A stretch of DNA of 64,000 nucleotides from Marvania coccoides (Eukaryota; Chlorophyta; Trebouxiophyceae; Chlorellales; Chlorellaceae). The notes under the pieces are model-generated. The model was not told the DNA's origin. It saw only the letters and a list, made by a program, of their open reading frames with translations, and did not search any database. How positions within the stretch are numbered: the first letter of the stretch is position 1; each line of letters starts with the position of its first letter. Of this stretch, positions 40,085 to 61,823 are shown piece by piece. Made by a program: the position numbers and the translations under genes. Where the stretch lies: assembly GCA_963854735.1 (NCBI GenBank), contig OY978107.1, positions 813,501-877,500 of the forward strand. Reading direction: 5' to 3'.

Positions 40085-40485
40085 CCCAAAGCGCACGCGG
40101 TGCGTCTGCAAGAGGCACACGCACTGAGCTCGTCAGCCATGCCGTGCTCCATTTGCAAATTGTTGTTGGAAGCGCCGACCGCAGCAACGCTGGAGTCTTG
40201 AACAACGGGATCTGGCGGTGCAAAGCGGTGTGAAGCTGCCTGAGCGCGGGCTTTAATGGATTTCCATACATGCTCTCTCAATTCCCCAAGTGCGCCGTGC
40301 AGGTGCTTCTTGCACCCCAATCTGATTAAATTCAAGAAATTTTGGGGCGGGCAGGCGGATCCAGGAGGGATGAGCACCCGCCTAGTCCTGCGCTCTGCTG
40401 TTACCTGGCTGCGAATTTTACGGCCACTTACTCTTAATGGAGTCGCCCAGCGCGGCCATGAAGACCTCTGCGCTGCGCCGTGCAC
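40085..40485 (+). repeat. Inverted copy A of the upstream region of the 1039-aa gene
   Basis: About 400 bp that match, in reverse orientation and with scattered substitutions, 52655-53055. Examples: GTGCAAGAAGCACCTGCACG, CCGCCTGCCCGCCCC and GGTCTTCATGGCCGCGCTGG are shared. Together with 40985-41126 it forms a partial second copy of the 5' end of that gene. Confidence 0.9.
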
Positions 40486-40984
40486 AACTTTTTAACTATA
40501 ACAACTGACTAAAAAACCCAAATACTGCTTTTTTTCCAGCCTGTGGTTTTTCGTGGTTTGTTCGTCGCTTCTCCATGTGCATTTCATCTGTACCTTTTCT
40601 CTTCCATGCATCTTATACAGCCTTACCTTTCTATTTTTCACTTTATCGAATTTTTTTGGCGCAACTGGGTTTTGCGCCTAATCCTTTTTACATCTCCCAT
40701 TCGCCACATTCTCTCTCCTTGTCCGAAATTGTTGGCTCCTTTGGCTGTCTTGGAAACCTTACTAACGTCAGCAACACACACTTCGCGGATTTGCAGGTAA
40801 ACAGGGTTTTGACATCTTCATTGATTTGCTTATGAAACTCTTCGAAGGAGCCACAGTTTTCGGACCCAATCATTTATTTAAAATAGTATACGTCGCATCT
40901 CGTGAGCTCCCCTAGCTTCTGCCTCGGGTTCTTAACGGGAATGGTTAAATTACTGCATAGCATCTGCTGCAGCCCCGCCAGTTC

Positions 40985-41126
40985 CAAGGCAAACCATGAC
41001 TGCATGCAGCAGCCCTTTTGAGGCTCACTTTGATTTCGAAGAAAATGTAAACAAACTGCAGGCGATGATTGAAGGGATGCAAGTCGAGCATGGGACAAGT
41101 AAACAACCTAGGCAGCGTGCGCACTG
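40985..41126 (+). pseudogene. Truncated paralogue of exon 1 of the 1039-aa gene
   Basis: An ATG at 40999 opens a 33-codon exon (CSSPFEAHF, NVNKLQAM, EGM, VEHG) colinear with exon 1 at 52513-52415. Differences are in-frame substitutions (for example LTDN to FEEN and MKV to MQV), which suggests an old copy that evolved as protein. The splice donor GTAAGT of the intact gene is ACAAGT here, so it probably cannot splice. Homology ends at about 41127, exactly where the foldback hairpin begins. Nothing else of the 1039-aa gene follows. The segment between the two homologous blocks (40486-40984) is unrelated to the 52-kb locus and shows no gene. Confidence 0.75.
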
Positions 41127-41730
41127 CCTTCAATAGGTATCAATTAAAGTATAAGAAGCAATCCAGCTTTAAAAATGCAGAATTACGCAACAAGCTTTGC
41201 TCTCGACTTTGCTCTCGACTTTGAGCAAGTCCCCACGTAGGGTGCACCGAGAGCCCTCCCTCCCGCGCGGCTTTCCTCGTCTCGAAAAAACAACTGGGCG
41301 GCCGCCTCATTTCCCCCATAAATAAATTTAGTTATTCTAACAGCATATGCTGTTGCCCCGCCAGTACCAAGGTCACCGCTGAATGTAAAAAACCCGTTTA
41401 TTTTAGGCTCGTTTTTTATTTTCTTGAAATAAAAAACGAGCCTAAAATAAACGGGTTTTTTACATTCAGCGGTGACCTTGGTACTGGCGGGGCAACAGCA
41501 TATGCTGTTAGAATAACTAAATTTATTTATGGGGGAAATGAGGCGGCCGCCCAGTTGTTTTTTCGAGACGAGGAAAGCCGCGCGGGAGGGAGGGCTCATG
41601 CATGCACGCATGGGGCTCTCGGTGCACCCCACGTGGGGACTTGTCGAGAGCAAAGTTTGTTGCGTATTCTGCATTTTTAAAGCTGGATTGCTTCTTATAC
41701 TTTAATACTTTAATTGATACCTATTGAAGC
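41127..41730. repeat. 600-bp foldback element (near-perfect inverted repeat)
   Basis: Two arms of about 300 bp are reverse complements of each other around a 4-base centre (CTTG near 41425). Outer ends read TTCAATAGGTATCAATTAAA and its complement; inner ends read AATAAAAAACGAGCC. The arms differ only by a few short indels (an extra TTTAATAC and a CATGCATGCACG insertion on the right, a duplicated GCTCTCGACTTT on the left). Each arm contains AACAGCATATGCTGTT, itself a palindrome. There is no coding capacity. Transcription would give a very long double-stranded RNA; as DNA it resembles a foldback transposon or a palindromic duplication. Confidence 0.95.
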
Positions 41731-42588: not shown

Positions 42589-42763
42589 TGAGTTCGCCGG
42601 AGTGCAAATTTGGCAGGGCGGCGAAACTGAACAAGAGCATCGCTTTGGTGTCTCCTTTCGCATCCTTTTTTATGTTTTAATCACAGCTAACCAGTTCACT
42701 GGGCGAAGGATTTGATGAAAGCCAGTCTGCGCGTCCATGATGGAAACACCGTAGCTCCATGCA

Positions 42764-42962
42764 TGCATACATACATACATACATACATACATACATACAT
42801 ACATACATACATACATACATACATACATACATACATACATACATACATACATACATACATACATACATACATACATACATACATACATACATACATACAT
42901 ACATACATACATACATACATACATACATACATACATACATACATACATACATACATACATAC
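42764..42962. repeat. (CATA)n microsatellite, about 49 units
   Basis: Uninterrupted tetranucleotide array. Long open frames through it on both strands are artefacts of the repeat. Confidence 0.98.
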
Positions 42963-43054
42963 ACGTCACGCGAGACTCGAGGGCCTCAGTGGGTGAACAA
43001 GCGCGGGGCTGCGGCCGTTGGCCTTTGAATTAATTAACTGCATTTCATCTACTA

Positions 43055-46533: not shown

Positions 46534-46768
46534 ATGTTGTATCCATACGCCCCAGTACCTGAGGTTGATCCCACGGATGGAAGGGGGTACCCCGCCTTAT
46601 TGTGGCGGTGGGAGTGGCACGTCGGCTTGCACCAACCTTGGTAGTAGACGGTGCAACCATGTAAAATTTTGAAATCGTTGCCAGTCTTCCCAAGAAAACG
46701 ATCGCGAGGTAACTAACACCTCTTCCATGTTTAACACGAGGGACCCCCCCCCCACAAAAAAAAATGAT

Positions 46769-46848
46769 TATTAGCACCACGCTACTACCAACTGAGCTAA
46801 GGGAGCGTTATTTGCTCCCTACAGGGCTTGAACCTATGACCTTGGCGT
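46769..46848 (-). tRNA. Circularly permuted tRNA-Ile (anticodon AAU)
   Basis: On the minus strand the 3' half comes first (46848-46813: ACGCCAAGGTC, T-arm ATAGG-TTCAAGC-CCTGT, acceptor AGGGAGC, discriminator A). A 6-base spacer AATAAC (46812-46807) follows, then the 5' half (46806-46769: acceptor GCTCCCT, TA, D-arm GCTC-AGTTGGTAG-TAGC, anticodon stem TGGTG, loop CTAATA). Joined at the usual 37/38 splice point, the halves give a full 74-nt cloverleaf: 7/7 acceptor pairs, T-stem 5/5 (one G-T), anticodon stem 5/5 (one G-T), and a D-stem with one mismatch at 13-22. The loop CTAATAA places AAT as anticodon, and the sequence otherwise matches eukaryotic tRNA-Ile(AAU). Nine Ts (46764-46756) after the 5' half form a Pol III terminator. 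No matching second half lies outside. Confidence 0.9.
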
Positions 46849-46879
46849 TCCATACATGGTCATCACCGAAGCGATTGAC

Positions 46880-47239: not shown

Positions 47240-48007
47240 GGAGATCAGCGCCCCGCCCTCCATGGACCGCCCTTCACGCCGGCTGAGCTCGAAGACACGG
47301 CTCTGAAGATGCGCACCAGCAAGACCTACGCAGGCGACCTCCGGCCGGAGGTGCTGCGCGCCCTGATGCCAGCGCTGGCAGAATCGCTGGCGGCGCTGTT
47401 CAACGCCTGTGTACGCCTGGGTGGCCTACAGCGCGAGTGGACCTGGGGGTACATCACCCCCATCCACAAGCCAGGCGGCGACGTGCACGAGCCGGGGGAC
47501 TACAGGCCCATCACGGTGGGCACCCTGCTGGCTCGGCTTTTCGCCTCAGCGCTGAACACGCGCCTGGTAGACTGGGCAGAGGCGGCGGGGGTGCGTGCGC
47601 AAGGGCATGCGGTTTTCGGCCGGGGAGGCGGTGCGCGGACCAGATCTTCGTGCCGGGCGATGCTGGAGCTGCAGCAGCGGGCGATGGAGAAAACGCCATT
47701 GTTCGTCTGTTTTGTTGACTTTCGGAAGGCGTACGACTCCGTCCCGCAAGAGAAGCTCTGGGGGAAGCTGCAGGCGGCTGGCGTGGGGGGCTGGTTGATG
47801 CGCGCCATCCAGACGCTGTATGCAGATATCCCTGTCTGCGTGAAAGGCGACACTGGATTCACGGCCACTTTCCCGTGCCTGGTGGGCCTGCGCCAGGGCT
47901 TCCCCCTCGGTCCCACAGTTTTGGGGATGTACGTGGACGACCTGGAGCGCGCGGAGCTAGCTGCGGCTGGGGTAGACCTATACGATTTGTGGCAGCAAGT
48001 CTGGTAA
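47240..48007 (+). mobile_element. Non-LTR (LINE) retrotransposon fragment, reverse transcriptase part
   Basis: An open frame reads PFTPAELEDTALKMRTSKTY, PEVLRALMPALAESLAALFN, WTWGYITPIHKPGGDVHEPG, DYRPITVGTLLARLFASALN, LFVCFVDFRKAYDSVPQEKL and GLRQGFPLGPTVLGMYVDDL: the fingers and palm motifs of LINE reverse transcriptases (PIHKxGD, YRPI, DFRKAYDSV, LRQGxPLxP). It stops soon after, before the FxDD catalytic box, and no endonuclease domain is readable upstream. The element is truncated and inactive. The RQGFPLGP block deviates from the usual RQGCPLSP. Confidence 0.85.
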
Positions 48008-52300: not shown

Positions 52301-52513
52301 GGATGGGCTGCAGTGAGGAGAGAGGGAGAAAAAAAAAATTAATTTCGGAGAGAGAAAATCGCCAAAAATCTCGCCGCAAAGCACGCGCGCACGCTGCCTA
52401 GGTTGTTCACTTACCCCATGCTCGACTTTCATCCCTTCAACCATCGCCTGCAGTTTGTTTACATTATCTGTGAGGTCAAAATGAGCCTCAAAAGGGCTGC
52501 TGCATGTAGTCAT
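48317..52513 (-). CDS. Large unknown protein: helical domain, RGG box, C-terminal SUMO-interacting motif
   Basis: Seven exons: 52513-52415, 52307-50523, 50293-50135, 49849-49646, 49542-49159, 49047-48906, 48663-48317; every intron is GT-AG, every phase agrees, 1039 aa, so the gene is intact. Residues 1-630 form a helical, well-composed domain (ENRELLRAGLMTATEGDVRW, FPYIVTCKVNDSKSAYATAR, FFETVAIMPLIDSIVVAMYT, LQLWDNSPIRGYPPAQLHAL) that I do not recognise. Exon 3 is Ala/His-rich and exon 4 is an RGG box (RGGARGSGMRGGGRGGGRGG), a typical RNA-binding tail. Exon 5 has poly-Ala (49318-49353), a basic patch KRPRGQ and an acidic SDEDEDA. The protein ends DDEDEVIDLT, a textbook SUMO-interacting motif. 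I infer a nuclear RNA- or chromatin-associated protein. A partial inverted paralogue is at 40-41 kb, so it belongs to a duplicating family. TGTAA (TTACA at 48257) follows the stop. Confidence 0.82.
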
Positions 52514-52559
52514 GGTTGGATATCAACACCGACTAATTTAAGAACATTTATATTCATTC

Positions 52560-52605
52560 ATGAGTGCAAGGTTTCAAGGTTGCAAGGTTGCAAGGTTTCA
52601 AGGTT
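52560..52605. repeat. Short tandem repeat (TTTCAAGG / TTGCAAGG units)
   Basis: GCAAGGTTTCAAGGTTGCAA-type units of 8 bp repeat five times directly upstream of the first exon of the 1039-aa gene. The unit is absent from the inverted copy at 40 kb. Confidence 0.85.
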
Positions 52606-52654
52606 TCTGGCGCATAGGGTGGCAAAAGAATGAAGAAAGGGACACCACGAGATG

Positions 52655-53055
52655 CATCAGCGCACAGGTCTTCATGGCCGCGCTGGGCGACTCCATTAAG
52701 AGTAAGTGGCCGTATAATTCGCAGCCAGGTAACAGCAGAGCCCAGGACTAGGCGGGTGCACATCCCTTCTGGATCCGCCTGCCCGCCCCAAAATTTCTTG
52801 AATTTAATCAGATTGGGGTGCAAGAAGCACCTGCACGGCGCACTTGGGGCATTGAGAGAGCATGTATGGAAATCCGTTAAAGCCTGCGCTCAGGCAGCTT
52901 CACACCGCTTTGCACCGCCAGATCCCGTCGTTCTTCAAGACTCCAGCGTTGCTGCGGTCGGCGCTTCCAACATCAATTTGCAAATGGAGCACGGCATGGC
53001 TGACGAGCTCAGTGCGTGTGCCTCTTGCAGACGCACCGCGTGCGCTTTGCAAGGC
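52655..53055 (-). repeat. Upstream region of the 1039-aa gene, copy B of the inverted duplication
   Basis: Matches 40085-40485 in reverse orientation. The distance to the exon-1 ATG differs between copies (about 140 bp here, about 510 bp at 40 kb). It probably includes promoter or 5' UTR. Confidence 0.9.
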
Positions 53056-53700: not shown

Positions 53701-56700
53701 CTAGCTGTTCCTCAGCTGCTTCAGCCGCTTTTTGTAGTCCTCAAATGTGCCGTGGAATGCGGACACTTTGCCGCCCTCTACCGCCCACAATTCGTCTACA
53801 GTGGCCTCGATGAGGTGCTGGTCATGCGACACCATCAGCACCCCGCCCTTGAACTCCACAAGCCCAGCCACCAGCGCGTCGATGGCGTCGATGTCCAGGT
53901 GATTGCTGGGCTCGTCCAGCAGCAGGATGTGGGGCTTGGTCCAGGTCACGCGTGCCAGGGCGACGCGGCTCTTCTGCCCGCCGCTGAGGGTGTACATGGC
54001 CTGCGAGGCGAGGTCGGCATTGACGCCAAAGGCAGCCAGGTGCGCCCTGCACGAGGGGGGGTGGAGAGAGTTTTTTTTTAAATAGAAAAGAAGGGGGGAA
54101 GGGACGCATTTTTTTGAACACAAACCGCTCGCGCGGCCTCCCCCACTTTCAATTCCTACCTGTGCACGGGCTCCTTGGCGTCGGGGAAGCATTTTGCAAA
54201 GTAGCCCAGCGGCGTCAGCGCCAGGTCCAGCCCGTCCACGTGGTGCTGGCTGAACACTGCCAGGCGCAGCTTGTTGGAGCGGTACGCGTGCCCCTTGGTG
54301 GGCTGCAGCTTCCCCGAGATCAGCCCCAGCAGCGTCGACTTTCCGATGCCGTTGGGCCCCACGATGGCCAGGCGGGACCCCATGTCAATGCCAAAATTCA
54401 GGTCGCTGAAAAGCTCAGGGGAGTCGGGACTGTAGCGGAAGGACACGTCGGTGAAGGAGATGACGGGGGGCCCCACTGGGTCTGGGGGCGCTGGGAATTT
54501 GAAGAGGTAGTCTGGGTCGAGTGCGACCTCCGCCACCTCGGCCATACGCTCCAGCGCCTTGATGCGGGACTGCACCAGCGCGGCGCGGTTAGCGTTGAAC
54601 CTGCGGTAAGGTTTGGGGGGGAAGAGGGGTTGGTTGGTTGAATGGGGGGGAAAGGGGTTTGGCGGGAAAAAATGTGTCGGGGAAGAATCAAAAGATATTT
54701 CGAAGTGAGAAGAGGATAACGCAACGAACTCGAGGACAGTCAGCATGGCAGAAATATAACAAAAAAATGGGTAAAAAAACTAAACAAAGGAAAAGACCTC
54801 AAGGGGGAGACGATAAATCGACCCTAAACAAAATAATAAACGTAATATTGAGAGTTTAAACTCAGCACAGAAATAGGGAAACACAGGTCACGCGTAGCGG
54901 GGTTCAAGACAGACAAAAACAGCACACTCGGATTAGAAAATATATAATTGTAAAGATAAACGCAACGTAAAAACAGGGCTCCGCCGTGACAAGCCTGCTC
55001 GCAAAGTTCACAAAATAATAATATGGCTGTCTCAGATATGCCTCCAATTAGAATAGAAAAGGGCACCAAAAAAACTCAAAGTTGTTTCCAAAACAGGAGA
55101 CGAAATTTGTATGGCATTCCCTAGCCACGCTGTTGTAATCTTATTTTCAAAAAACACCCATCACATTTGCCACCCCTCCCCAAACCCACCTAAATCTGTC
55201 GATGAACGCCTGCATGTGCGCCCGCCGCGCCGCCACGCCCTCTGCCGCCGCGGCCGCGCAGCGCTGCCGCTCCTTGGCCGTCTTTTCAAAAATGTCGTAG
55301 TTGCCGCGGTAGGCCACCAGCGTGCGGTTGTGCAGGTGCAGTACGTCGGTGCACACCTCGTTGAGAAACTCTCTGGCGTGGGAGACCACCACCACCGTCT
55401 TGGGCCACTTCAGCAGGTAATCTGCAGCCGGGTAATTTAGGAGAGGAGAGAGGGCGTTAGAAGGAAGGTTGGTAAGAATTATGCGTCTTCATATGCCCCC
55501 AGTGAACTTCGAGAGAGCGTAATCAAGTTCGTCTTGTTTTAGAAGAACAAAGAGACCCACGAGAACGAAAGAATGGAAAAAGAAAACCTGGTGTAGGAAT
55601 AAAGCTGAAAGCTTTCAGCTTTATTATCACTTAAGTGATAATAAACAAACAAACGGGTAGGAATCAAGCTGAGAAGAAGAAGAATAAAAAAACTGAAACT
55701 GAAACTGAAACTGAAACTGAAACTGAAACTGAAACTGAAACTGAAACTGAAACTGAAACTGAAACTGAAACTGAAACTGAAACTGAAACTGAAACTGAAA
55801 CTGAAACTGAAACTGAAACTGAAACTGAAACTGAAACAGTTCTAGATACACTCCGCCGCCGCCCAGCCTCCCAGGGCAGCATGTCCAAATAATACCAGAA
55901 TTTCGGGCGAGCGATACAAAACCACACATGGTATATGCTGGTGAAGAAAGACTTAAAACCTCTCTCACCTTGCAGCCACAGCACCGCGTGCAGGTCCAGG
56001 TGATTTGTGGGCTCATCCAGCAGCAGCAGGTCTGGCTGCACGAACAGCGCCCGCGCCAGCGCCACCCGCATGCGCCACCCGCCAGACAGGCTGGACGTGG
56101 GCCTGGCCTGCATGCCTGGGTCGAACGAAAGCCCCGCCAGGATGGCCGACGCGCGCGCCTCCGCGCCAAACGCGTCGATGTCGTGCAACCGCCGCGCCAC
56201 CGCCTCCAGCCGCCCAGCCGGCGCCGCAGGGTCCTTCATCAGCTCGGCCTCCTCCGCCATCAGCCGCATGCGCTCTGTGTCGCACGACATCACCGTCTCC
56301 AGCGCTGAAATGCCGTCGCCAGACACCTCCTGCTCCACGTGAAGCACCTGGCAGTTGGGGGGCAACCCGGGGAGCTGCCGGGCAGCCAGGGCCCGAAGCA
56401 TGGTGGTTTTCCCCGAGCCGTTGCGCCCCACCAGGCCGTACCGCCGGCCGTAGGTCAGCGTAACGTCGGCATCTGAAATGAGCTCTGCGCCGCCGTTGCT
56501 CACGCAGATGGAGCGCAGGTGGATGTCTCGCACCGCGGGGCCGCCCGCGTTGCGCAGCACCTCCACGGTGTGCCCGTTGAGCGCCTCCTGGGCCGCCGCC
56601 TGGTGCGCCTCCAGCGCCGCGCGCGCCGCGCGCTCCGCCTTGTCGTTGGCGCGCTTGATCTTGGCGGCGTCCTTCTCGCTCATCAGCGAAAAGTCTGCCT

Positions 56701-60600: not shown

Positions 60601-61182
60601 GCGCTGTTGGAAGCTGGGGAGAAGGTCATCGTGTTTGCGCACCACCAGGAGGTCAGTTTTAGTTTTTTTTTACCGGAGTTTCTGGTCTGGCGTTTGAGCG
60701 TACTGAGTAGGGGTATTCCTTTCCTCCTTGCCGTTCTTTTTTATTTCTACGGCATAAATTACCAAGTATTTCTTCCGATCTCCGTCATCGTCATCTATCC
60801 ACTGCTTTCCAGGTGCTGGATGCGCTGGAGGAGAAGCTCAGCCTGGGCAGCGCCGACTCTGAAGAAGAACACGCAGCAGCACAGCCCGGCCCAGCCACCC
60901 CTCCAGGCGCCAAAAAGCGAACAAAGAGCAGCAGCAGCAGTGATGGGCCTGCCAAACGGGTGGTGCGCATCGACGGCAACGTCGCCAACGAGCGGCGCAT
61001 GGCGGCAGTGGACGCTTTTCAGAGCGACCCGCGGGTGAAGATAGCGCTGCTGTCCATCACTGCTGCGGGGCAGGGGATCACGCTGACGGAGGCCACCGTG
61101 GTGGTGTTCGCGGAGCTGTGGTGGAACCCAGGGTCGCTTATCCAGGCAGAAGGTAAGGAAGAAAGAAAGAAATAAATAAATA

Positions 61183-61258
<76 letters not shown>

Positions 61259-61823
61259 ACGCTACTTGATTAATTGATTGTTAATTGATTGATTCTAAAA
61301 CCGTTAATTTTAGCTTTTGCCTCAGTTGATACTTAAATGAATCCATTTTTCACTCATTTTTTCACTCCCGCTCCCTCTCTCTCTTTGCGGTGTAGATCGC
61401 GCGCACCGCCTGGGGCAGCGCGACCAGCTGAAAATCCACTACATGACGGCGGAGGGCACCGCCGACGACCTCATGTGGCGGATAGTCAAGGACAAACTGT
61501 GCGTGGTCAGCTCGGTGCTGGGCGGCAGGTCTTCGATTTTTTCTTCCATGCAGTTGGCCTCCTCGGCGGAAGAGCACTATGTCAGGGCGGTGGCGCAGAC
61601 CCAGAGCCAGCATGTGGAAGAGGTGGGTCCATCGGGGGTGCAGCCCCACCGCCAGCAGCAGCAGCAGCAGGCGCAGCAAGAGTCGCAGCGGCCTCCTCTG
61701 CAGCGGCGGCAAAGGCAGAAGCAGCATCAGGCAACCCCAGAGGTGATTGTGATCGACAGCTTGTCGAACGCCACCACCGTGGTGGCGGGGCAGGAGGAAG
61801 AGGGGGAGGAGTGTGAGAGCTGA
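57656..61823 (+). CDS. SNF2 annealing helicase with zf-GRF and HARP domains (SMARCAL1-like)
   Basis: ATP-driven remodeller that re-anneals RPA-coated DNA at stalled forks. Seven exons: 57656-57756, 57842-58144, 58663-59525, 59829-60058, 60367-60651, 60813-61152, 61396-61823; GT-AG, 849 aa. The N-terminus is a zf-GRF zinc finger (RCVCGIPSRL, NSPNKGRWFYGCAR, HCTFFQWV), which binds single-stranded DNA, replacing the RPA-binding motif of animal SMARCAL1. A HARP domain follows (AVTLEIVSRTHFGAKYPF, WNPSVRAWVFPLHHYEAVLH), then SNF2 motifs: Q-like LYSFQRAAVRFGL, I DDMGLGKT (about 285-292), Ia LIVTPATMKLVW, II DESH (about 392-395), then VLLRRTKQQ, KVIVFAHHQE, LLSITAAGQGITLTEA and DRAHRLGQ. The C-terminus is Gln-rich and has EVIVIDS, a possible SUMO-interacting motif. 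TGTAA at 61983. Confidence 0.93.
60112..60175 (+). repeat. Dispersed ~65-bp repeat, copy 2
   Basis: Inside helicase intron 4; matches 35480-35545 reversed (CCAGGGGCACTCCCCCGAGG, GCAGATCGGG, TACCAGAGT). A more diverged scrap (CGGAGTTTCTGGTCTGGCG) is at 60675-60693 in the next intron. Confidence 0.75.
61159..61259. repeat. (GAAA)n microsatellite in a helicase intron
   Basis: Nearly pure tetranucleotide repeat on the coding strand; located between exons 6 and 7. Confidence 0.95.

Follow-up and report, generated by a model that had tools for sequence, protein, structure and literature searches.

How is a tRNA gene to be understood whose 3' half stands upstream of its 5' half, and is such a gene the peculiarity of one place or part of a design that its genome uses more widely? 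The locus that raises this question lies in a 64,000-base stretch of DNA from the green alga Marvania coccoides, here called the window, which corresponds to C11:813501-877500 in a 22.46 Mb genome of 15 contigs. A first-pass annotation had described a tRNA-Ile(AAU) gene in circularly permuted form, which has a six-base AATAAC spacer, a T9 terminator of the RNA polymerase III type, perfect acceptor pairing and a complete cloverleaf. All of these features are borne out by the analysis described here.

Read along the minus strand, the locus starts with a leader (46849..46873), which is presumably cut off together with the trailer by the splicing endonuclease. The 3' half, ACGCCAAGGTCATAGGTTCAAGCCCTGTAGGGAGCA (46848-46813), comes first and comprises positions 38-73 with the T arm and the 3' strand of the acceptor stem. 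Within it, the motif search places a B-box-like T-arm motif, GGTTCAAGCCC (46824..46834, equal to C11:860324-860334), which thus comes to lie upstream of the A box. The intervening sequence AATAAC (46807..46812, 6 nt) separates the discriminator base A73 from G1, and CCA is not encoded. The 5' half, GCTCCCTTAGCTCAGTTGGTAGTAGCGTGGTGCTAATA (46806-46769), comes second and provides positions 1-37 with the D arm and the anticodon AAU. It is followed by ATCA (46768-46765) and by a run of nine Ts (46756..46764), the first of which is the fifth base past the 5' half and which is a probable RNA polymerase III terminator. Both halves are recognized in the sequence, by ARAGORN and by a covariance model, the 5' half additionally by its genome match, and the spacer by sequence and ARAGORN.

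When the halves are rejoined they give a tRNA of 74 nt with seven of seven acceptor pairs. Of its 21 pairs in the model alignment, all but C13/U22 in the D stem are standard. As read from the sequence, the eukaryotic consensus positions T8, A14, G15:C48, G18G19, T33 and the T-loop TTCAA are kept. The halves share an AA at the junction, so the DNA places the cut at 36/37, 37/38 or 38/39, that is, within 2 nt of 37/38, which is the canonical place. With the 3' half upstream on the same strand, a 6-nt spacer, a complete cloverleaf, a junction at 37/38, a body devoid of internal T4 and a T-run behind it, the locus has the characteristics of a permuted gene of type II. No clear TATA box was seen by eye in the 60 nt upstream.

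A permuted cloverleaf is still fully nested and can therefore be described by a covariance model. Such a model was trained on nine ordinary nuclear tRNAs of the same genome obtained in an RF00005 search (Val, Gln, eMet, Gly, Glu, Cys, Asp, Lys and Thr), leaving the window gene out. Across the 64,000 bases it returned a single match with E up to 10, namely tRNA-Ile(AAU), at 62.6 bits and an E-value of 1.3e-20, which for a match of this strength is rough according to the covariance tool's own warning. ARAGORN names Ile(aat) from the rejoined or circularized body and finds nothing in the linear one, while shuffled bodies gave 0 of 3000 calls (15 bodies, 200 shuffles each). Run over the whole window, with and without introns, ARAGORN reports no gene, and neither does Rfam give any match at gathering scores, as is expected of a permuted gene. 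The observation of a permuted tRNA-Ile(AAU) gene is thus confirmed.

Permuted tRNA genes across the genome

Does the cell have another tRNA-Ile(AAU)? A comparison of the rejoined 74-mer with the 22.46 Mb genome yields only the window locus, in two overlapping pieces (1-39 and 38-74) of 100% identity, and a 161-bp query from the locus likewise finds one copy. The RF00005 search, in which 63 of 454 candidates were scored, gave 61 matches, 52 of them on C14 and C15, presumably the two organelle genomes (mitochondrion and plastid); there is no Ile among the nine nuclear tRNAs that remain. The motif census described below adds no ordinary tRNA-Ile(AAU) gene either, although a second one of very different sequence could be missed by a census that follows one T-arm motif. 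An intron-containing locus, L099, is named Ser(tga) by ARAGORN but by reading of the sequence could be Ile(UAU). A plant initiator-Met probe found no match in the genome and is uninformative.

The census used the motif GGTTCRANYCC, which has 132 matches in the genome, 86 of them on the nuclear contigs C1-C13, and all 86 places were examined. Since the reversed pattern has 212 matches, the motif is not enriched and most of its places are chance. Two variants, AGTTCRANYCT and GGTTCRANRCC, were counted only and occur 105 and 121 times, with 125 and 233 matches for their controls. The permuted model was run on 89 loci (79 motif loci, the locus of the window gene and nine with ordinary tRNAs), which yielded 42 matches at E up to 10. 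Of these, 14 reach at least 36 bits, and the next score beneath them, 29.4 bits, is a half-match at an ordinary tRNA. The other 28 matches are all below 30 bits; many are half-matches of this same sort, and the remainder are short or chance pieces.

Thirteen of the 14 high-scoring matches are clear permuted genes, the window gene counted in. Besides Ile(AAU) they comprise Arg(UCG) (L049), Arg(CCG) (L105), Arg(CCU) (L050), Arg(UCU) (L108), Thr(CGU) (L038), Thr(UGU) (L097), Phe(GAA) (L077), Ala(CGC) (L084), Glu(CUC) (L041), Asn(GUU) (L072), Ser(GCU) (L059) and Leu(CAG) (L036), and these 12 sister genes are spread over C2, C3, C5, C6, C9, C11 and C13. In its circular mode ARAGORN names all 13 with the listed anticodons, compared with 0 of 15 bodies in linear form. 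A run of at least four Ts starting 3-9 nt past the 5' half is present in 13 of 13, as opposed to 4.7% of 20,000 random places; the Thr(UGU) gene also carries a T4 inside its spacer. That all 13 have their break at 37/38 follows from the model, which was built for that type only.

Two further candidates were set aside. L048 (1487-1569) scores 36.7 bits and is called Glu(ttc) by circular ARAGORN, but lacks a nearby T-run and has a poor anticodon stem; it is perhaps a permuted pseudogene. L094, at 22.1 bits, has neither a nearby T-run nor an ARAGORN call.

Ten ordinary or intron-containing genes were found at the same 86 places. Val, eMet, Glu, Cys, Asp and Lys among them come from the RF00005 search, and four (L064, L089, L095 and L099) are seen by ARAGORN in intron mode only, which names them Thr, Arg, Gly and Ser, respectively; the long variable arms of L064 and L095 make these two look like Ser. 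A copy of tRNA-Lys consisting of the 3' half only (L090) was left out of this count. Permuted genes hence make up 13 of 23 tRNA genes reached through the motif, or 13 of 19 without the four intron-mode genes, and this share is rough since permuted and ordinary genes were called by different programs of unequal sensitivity. Linear ARAGORN, with and without introns, calls none of the 12 fetched sister loci, just as it calls nothing in the window: an ordinary tRNA finder overlooks permuted genes.

Partial copies, neighborhood and competing readings

Past the Ala(CGC) gene (L084 475-550) there is a tandem second 5' half together with its T-run, and past the Leu(CAG) gene (L036 1567-1700) the permuted unit occurs a second time, its 3' half truncated. 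On C8, about 5 kb from locus L016, L090 is a copy of an intron-containing tRNA-Lys(CUU) that lacks a 5' half: it starts in the anticodon stem and continues through the loop and the intron to the 3' half with its 3' flank. An extra 5' half past a permuted gene has been described in Ostreococcus lucimarinus (PMC4494063, consulted in part). The partial copies at Ala, Leu and Lys fit a model of duplication and loss. Retroposition, for which target-site duplications were sought as a sign, finds no support in the flanks: the longest common word has a mean length of 6.3 in a gene's own 100-nt flanks and 6.6 in crossed flanks.

Such partial duplications also lend something to the strongest rival reading, in which the window gene is a dead pseudogene, left over from an old tandem duplication of a tRNA of which the inner parts persist and the outer halves have decayed. 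The single mismatch in the D stem agrees with this, as does L048, a permuted-looking sequence without a terminator. Against it, both breaks fall within 2 nt of each other in the anticodon loop, 20 of 21 pairs are kept and the T9 is in place. No intact tRNA-Ile(AAU) was found that could have replaced it, and twelve genes of the same design, each a full tRNA when circularized, speak against decay. We consider this reading improbable.

Could the locus instead give rise to an RNA with a regulatory role outside translation, circular or hairpin-shaped and merely tRNA-like? The order of T arm, acceptor and D arm weakly resembles that of YrlA, a Y RNA-like family, which appears as a sub-threshold match at permissive Rfam settings. 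The score falls well short of membership (18.2 bits where 69 is the gathering score; E 0.45). The anticodon stem and loop are complete, the standard eukaryotic positions are kept and no other gene for this tRNA was found, all of which make the regulatory reading very unlikely. That chimeric or collapsed reads misordered the halves in the assembly is scarcely credible, and nothing was found in its favor: the break sits at the canonical splice site between flanks that differ from one another, and genes of this design are found at 12 more places, spread over seven contigs.

This leaves the reading that we prefer, with a probability of roughly 0.9: a working type II (37/38) permuted nuclear gene for the cytosolic tRNA-Ile(AAU), which is probably the cell's only source of that tRNA.

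The gene was earlier placed in a transposon-rich island, which was offered as a possible clue to how so rare a gene might arise. This is partly borne out. An open reading frame with a reverse-transcriptase domain (47309..48007, plus strand; PF00078, E 3e-12) is close by, its start about 460 bp away, and a dispersed repeat (40531..40950, plus strand) is found at a distance of about 6 kb. The genome has 35 further stretches of this repeat, 33 of which share one common end (query 861-878) and vary at the other, like truncated LINE copies. Both are treated as neighbors only. The tie to rarity is not supported, as 12 more clear permuted genes exist elsewhere in the genome and the Ile(AAU) gene is accordingly not a lone rarity of this island.

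Some other features of the surroundings may be recorded here. One copy of the dispersed repeat is close to a tRNA-Cys (C9:615795) and one lies between two tRNA-Lys copies (C8:770183). Inverted repeats at 40087-41122 and 52387-53049, of 121-276 nt and 91-98% complementary, stand 11-13 kb apart, with the permuted tRNA gene between them. A palindrome spanning roughly 600 bp (41128-41729) has 171-nt arms that are 100% complementary with 5 nt between them and further arms outside; at permissive settings it draws matches to microRNA families in Rfam, below gathering scores. Long, nearly pure microsatellites occur at 42758-42963 (CATA), 55690-55837 (AAACTG) and 61155-61259 (AAGA).

Transcription, splicing and the junction

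How might a gene of this layout yield a tRNA? By analogy with other algae (Soma's 2014 review, PMC3978253, as far as consulted) and with what is generally established for tRNAs, RNA polymerase III would produce a single transcript of leader, 3' half, AATAAC, 5' half and trailer that stops in the T9. The two halves would fold into a cloverleaf with its open ends in the anticodon loop, where the Sen2/Sen34 splicing endonuclease would remove leader and trailer. A ligase would then join 37 to 38 and close the RNA into a circle, from which RNase P and tRNase Z would excise AATAAC. Addition of CCA and conversion of A34 to inosine would complete a tRNA-Ile that is presumably used in translation.

Homologues of the central enzymes are present in the genome. 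Two frames carry a tRNA_int_endo domain above the Pfam cut-off, and their closest PDB chains are Sen34 (best E 1.1e-13) and Sen2 (best E 1.3e-18). The Sen2 frame contains a GKR as well as a spaced pair of Tyr and His residues, in keeping with the active site. An RtcB homologue is spread over three adjacent stretches, like exons; the ligase search covered RtcB, which is a candidate for the ligase in use.

The first-pass annotation had also suggested that complementary flanks, ATGA in the leader and TCAT behind the 5' half, help to build the splice structure. Both motifs are there (46863-46860 and 46767-46764), and an ATGG in the leader (46853-46850) could pair with the same TCAT. A splice helix of this kind is not supported by the set as a whole, in which such pairing does not exceed chance. 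When RNA duplex energies of leader and trailer were calculated for the 13 genes, comparing own pairings with all cross-pairings, the own pairings were on average weaker than the mismatched ones at every trailer length (6 nt, p 0.79; 8 nt, p 0.87; 10 nt, p 0.86; 12 nt, p 0.60).

With regard to a BHB or relaxed BHB motif at the junction, pairing of the leader with the anticodon loop was examined as well. Positions 32-37 of the loop, with or without the trailer, give p-values of 0.02-0.25 over 12 settings when tested against the leader. In a fixed register, a helix that starts 4 nt ahead of the 3' half reaches a sum of 34 compared with 22.8 in permutations (p 0.015); as the register was picked after inspection, this is to be taken as a lead. 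Runs of 4-7 pairs occur in four of the 13 genes, namely Leu(CAG), Arg(CCG), Arg(CCU) and Thr(CGU), and runs of three in another four, so that eight have at least three. Four have none, Ile(AAU) among these. Base 32 gave no signal, pairing with any of the leader positions -1 to -7 in at most eight of 13 genes.

The order of the promoter elements raises a further question: which promoter is used? In the consulted parts of the same review, permuted genes are explained by transcription driven from an upstream TATA element, a TATA-like sequence is found upstream of most genes in Cyanidioschyzon merolae, and homologues of TFC1 and TFC3 are described as not identified in that alga (PMC3978253). The present genome differs from it in having candidates for both. 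A frame of 611 amino acids combines a B-block domain with a GTF3C1 winged helix, and one of 520 amino acids contains Tau95 and Tau95_N. In prokaryotic controls Tau95 had matches in 0 of 14 genomes and the B-block family in eight of 14, four of them above the cut-off, so that the second domain matters for the 611-residue assignment. Judged by these domains, TFIIIC is at least partly present in the host, and a genome can be rich in permuted genes without having lost it.

A wider reading would be that nuclear tRNA genes in this alga are more often permuted than arranged in any other way, essential single-copy genes included, and that a polymerase III that has kept TFIIIC reads genes with the B box upstream. 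We offer it tentatively, as something rather less than an even bet. If it is true, permutation does not require that TFIIIC be lost, and permuted genes would arise and spread through local duplication of halves that is still going on, as at the Ala and Leu genes. The host lends itself to asking which promoter is used, how permutation relates to TFIIIC loss, what the splicing enzyme needs at its junction and how the halves swap.

Comparison with known hosts

The permuted tRNA genes of C. merolae were reportedly described by Soma et al. in 2007, and those of prasinophytes and chlorarachniophyte nucleomorphs are said to have been described by Maruyama et al. in 2010. Together with Thermofilum and, since 2025, Auxenochlorella these are known hosts. 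Apparently new are a permuted gene for Ile(AAU), the lineage, and how large a share the permuted genes make up.

Judged by its contigs, the host looks like a Marvania-type trebouxiophyte. C15 (99.9 kb) has frames that by their sequence we take to be cysA-like and FtsH-like. Among named proteins, the FtsH-like frame is closest to one of Marvania geminata, a trebouxiophyte of the Chlorellales, at 84% identity and 86% query coverage; two environmental proteins score higher. The GC content of C15 is 35.6-38.2% in four of six pieces examined, and C14 has two copies of trnS(tga). The literature, as far as consulted, gives a plastid GC content of 37.6-38.2% for Marvania and 32-33.4% for other members of the clade, and reports an extra mitochondrial trnS(tga) for M. 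coccoides (PMC11434904).

Auxenochlorella was missing from the hosts named in the first-pass annotation. It is the only trebouxiophyte for which we recognized a report of permuted tRNA genes, in a literature judged mostly by titles and abstract openings. According to the parts consulted, strain UTEX 250-A is a trebouxiophyte of the same NCBI family as Marvania with a small genome, and its ordinary tRNA search likewise returned an incomplete set (PMC12633428, PMC12636532). It is nevertheless a different alga, as shown by its GC content, which is 63.9% there (PMC12633428, in part) and on average about 55% in 30 sampled nuclear loci here, and in its organelles of 84.6 and 54.0 kb (same source), compared with contigs of 99.9 and 49.0 kb.

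With prasinophytes and nucleomorphs our genes share the green lineage and a junction that is nearly always at 37/38 (PMC3978253 Table 1 and PMC4494063, both consulted in part), and Arg(TCT) and Asn(GTT) are also among the permuted genes listed for Ostreococcus tauri (PMC3978253, in part). The prasinophyte and nucleomorph genes in that table are mostly Ser, Leu, Cys and iMet, with at most six per genome, whereas ours are mainly class I tRNAs (four Arg, two Thr, Ile, Phe, Ala, Glu and Asn) with one Ser and one Leu.

Across the 2014 table, as consulted, genomes have two to eleven permuted genes, the 11 of C. merolae being the largest set, no Ile is listed, and intervening sequences range from 1 to 74 nt (PMC3978253, Table 1). 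In C. merolae, too, the 3' half comes first, the spacer is short (7-74 nt there, 6 here), a T-run follows the 5' half and CCA is not encoded, and six of its 11 permuted genes break at 37/38; the 11 fall into four types, while the 13 clear genes found here are all 37/38, the type that our model sought (PMC3978253, in part). The layout that is rare elsewhere is common in this small green alga, with at least 13 genes, and the larger result is their share alongside a TFIIIC of which at least part is present.
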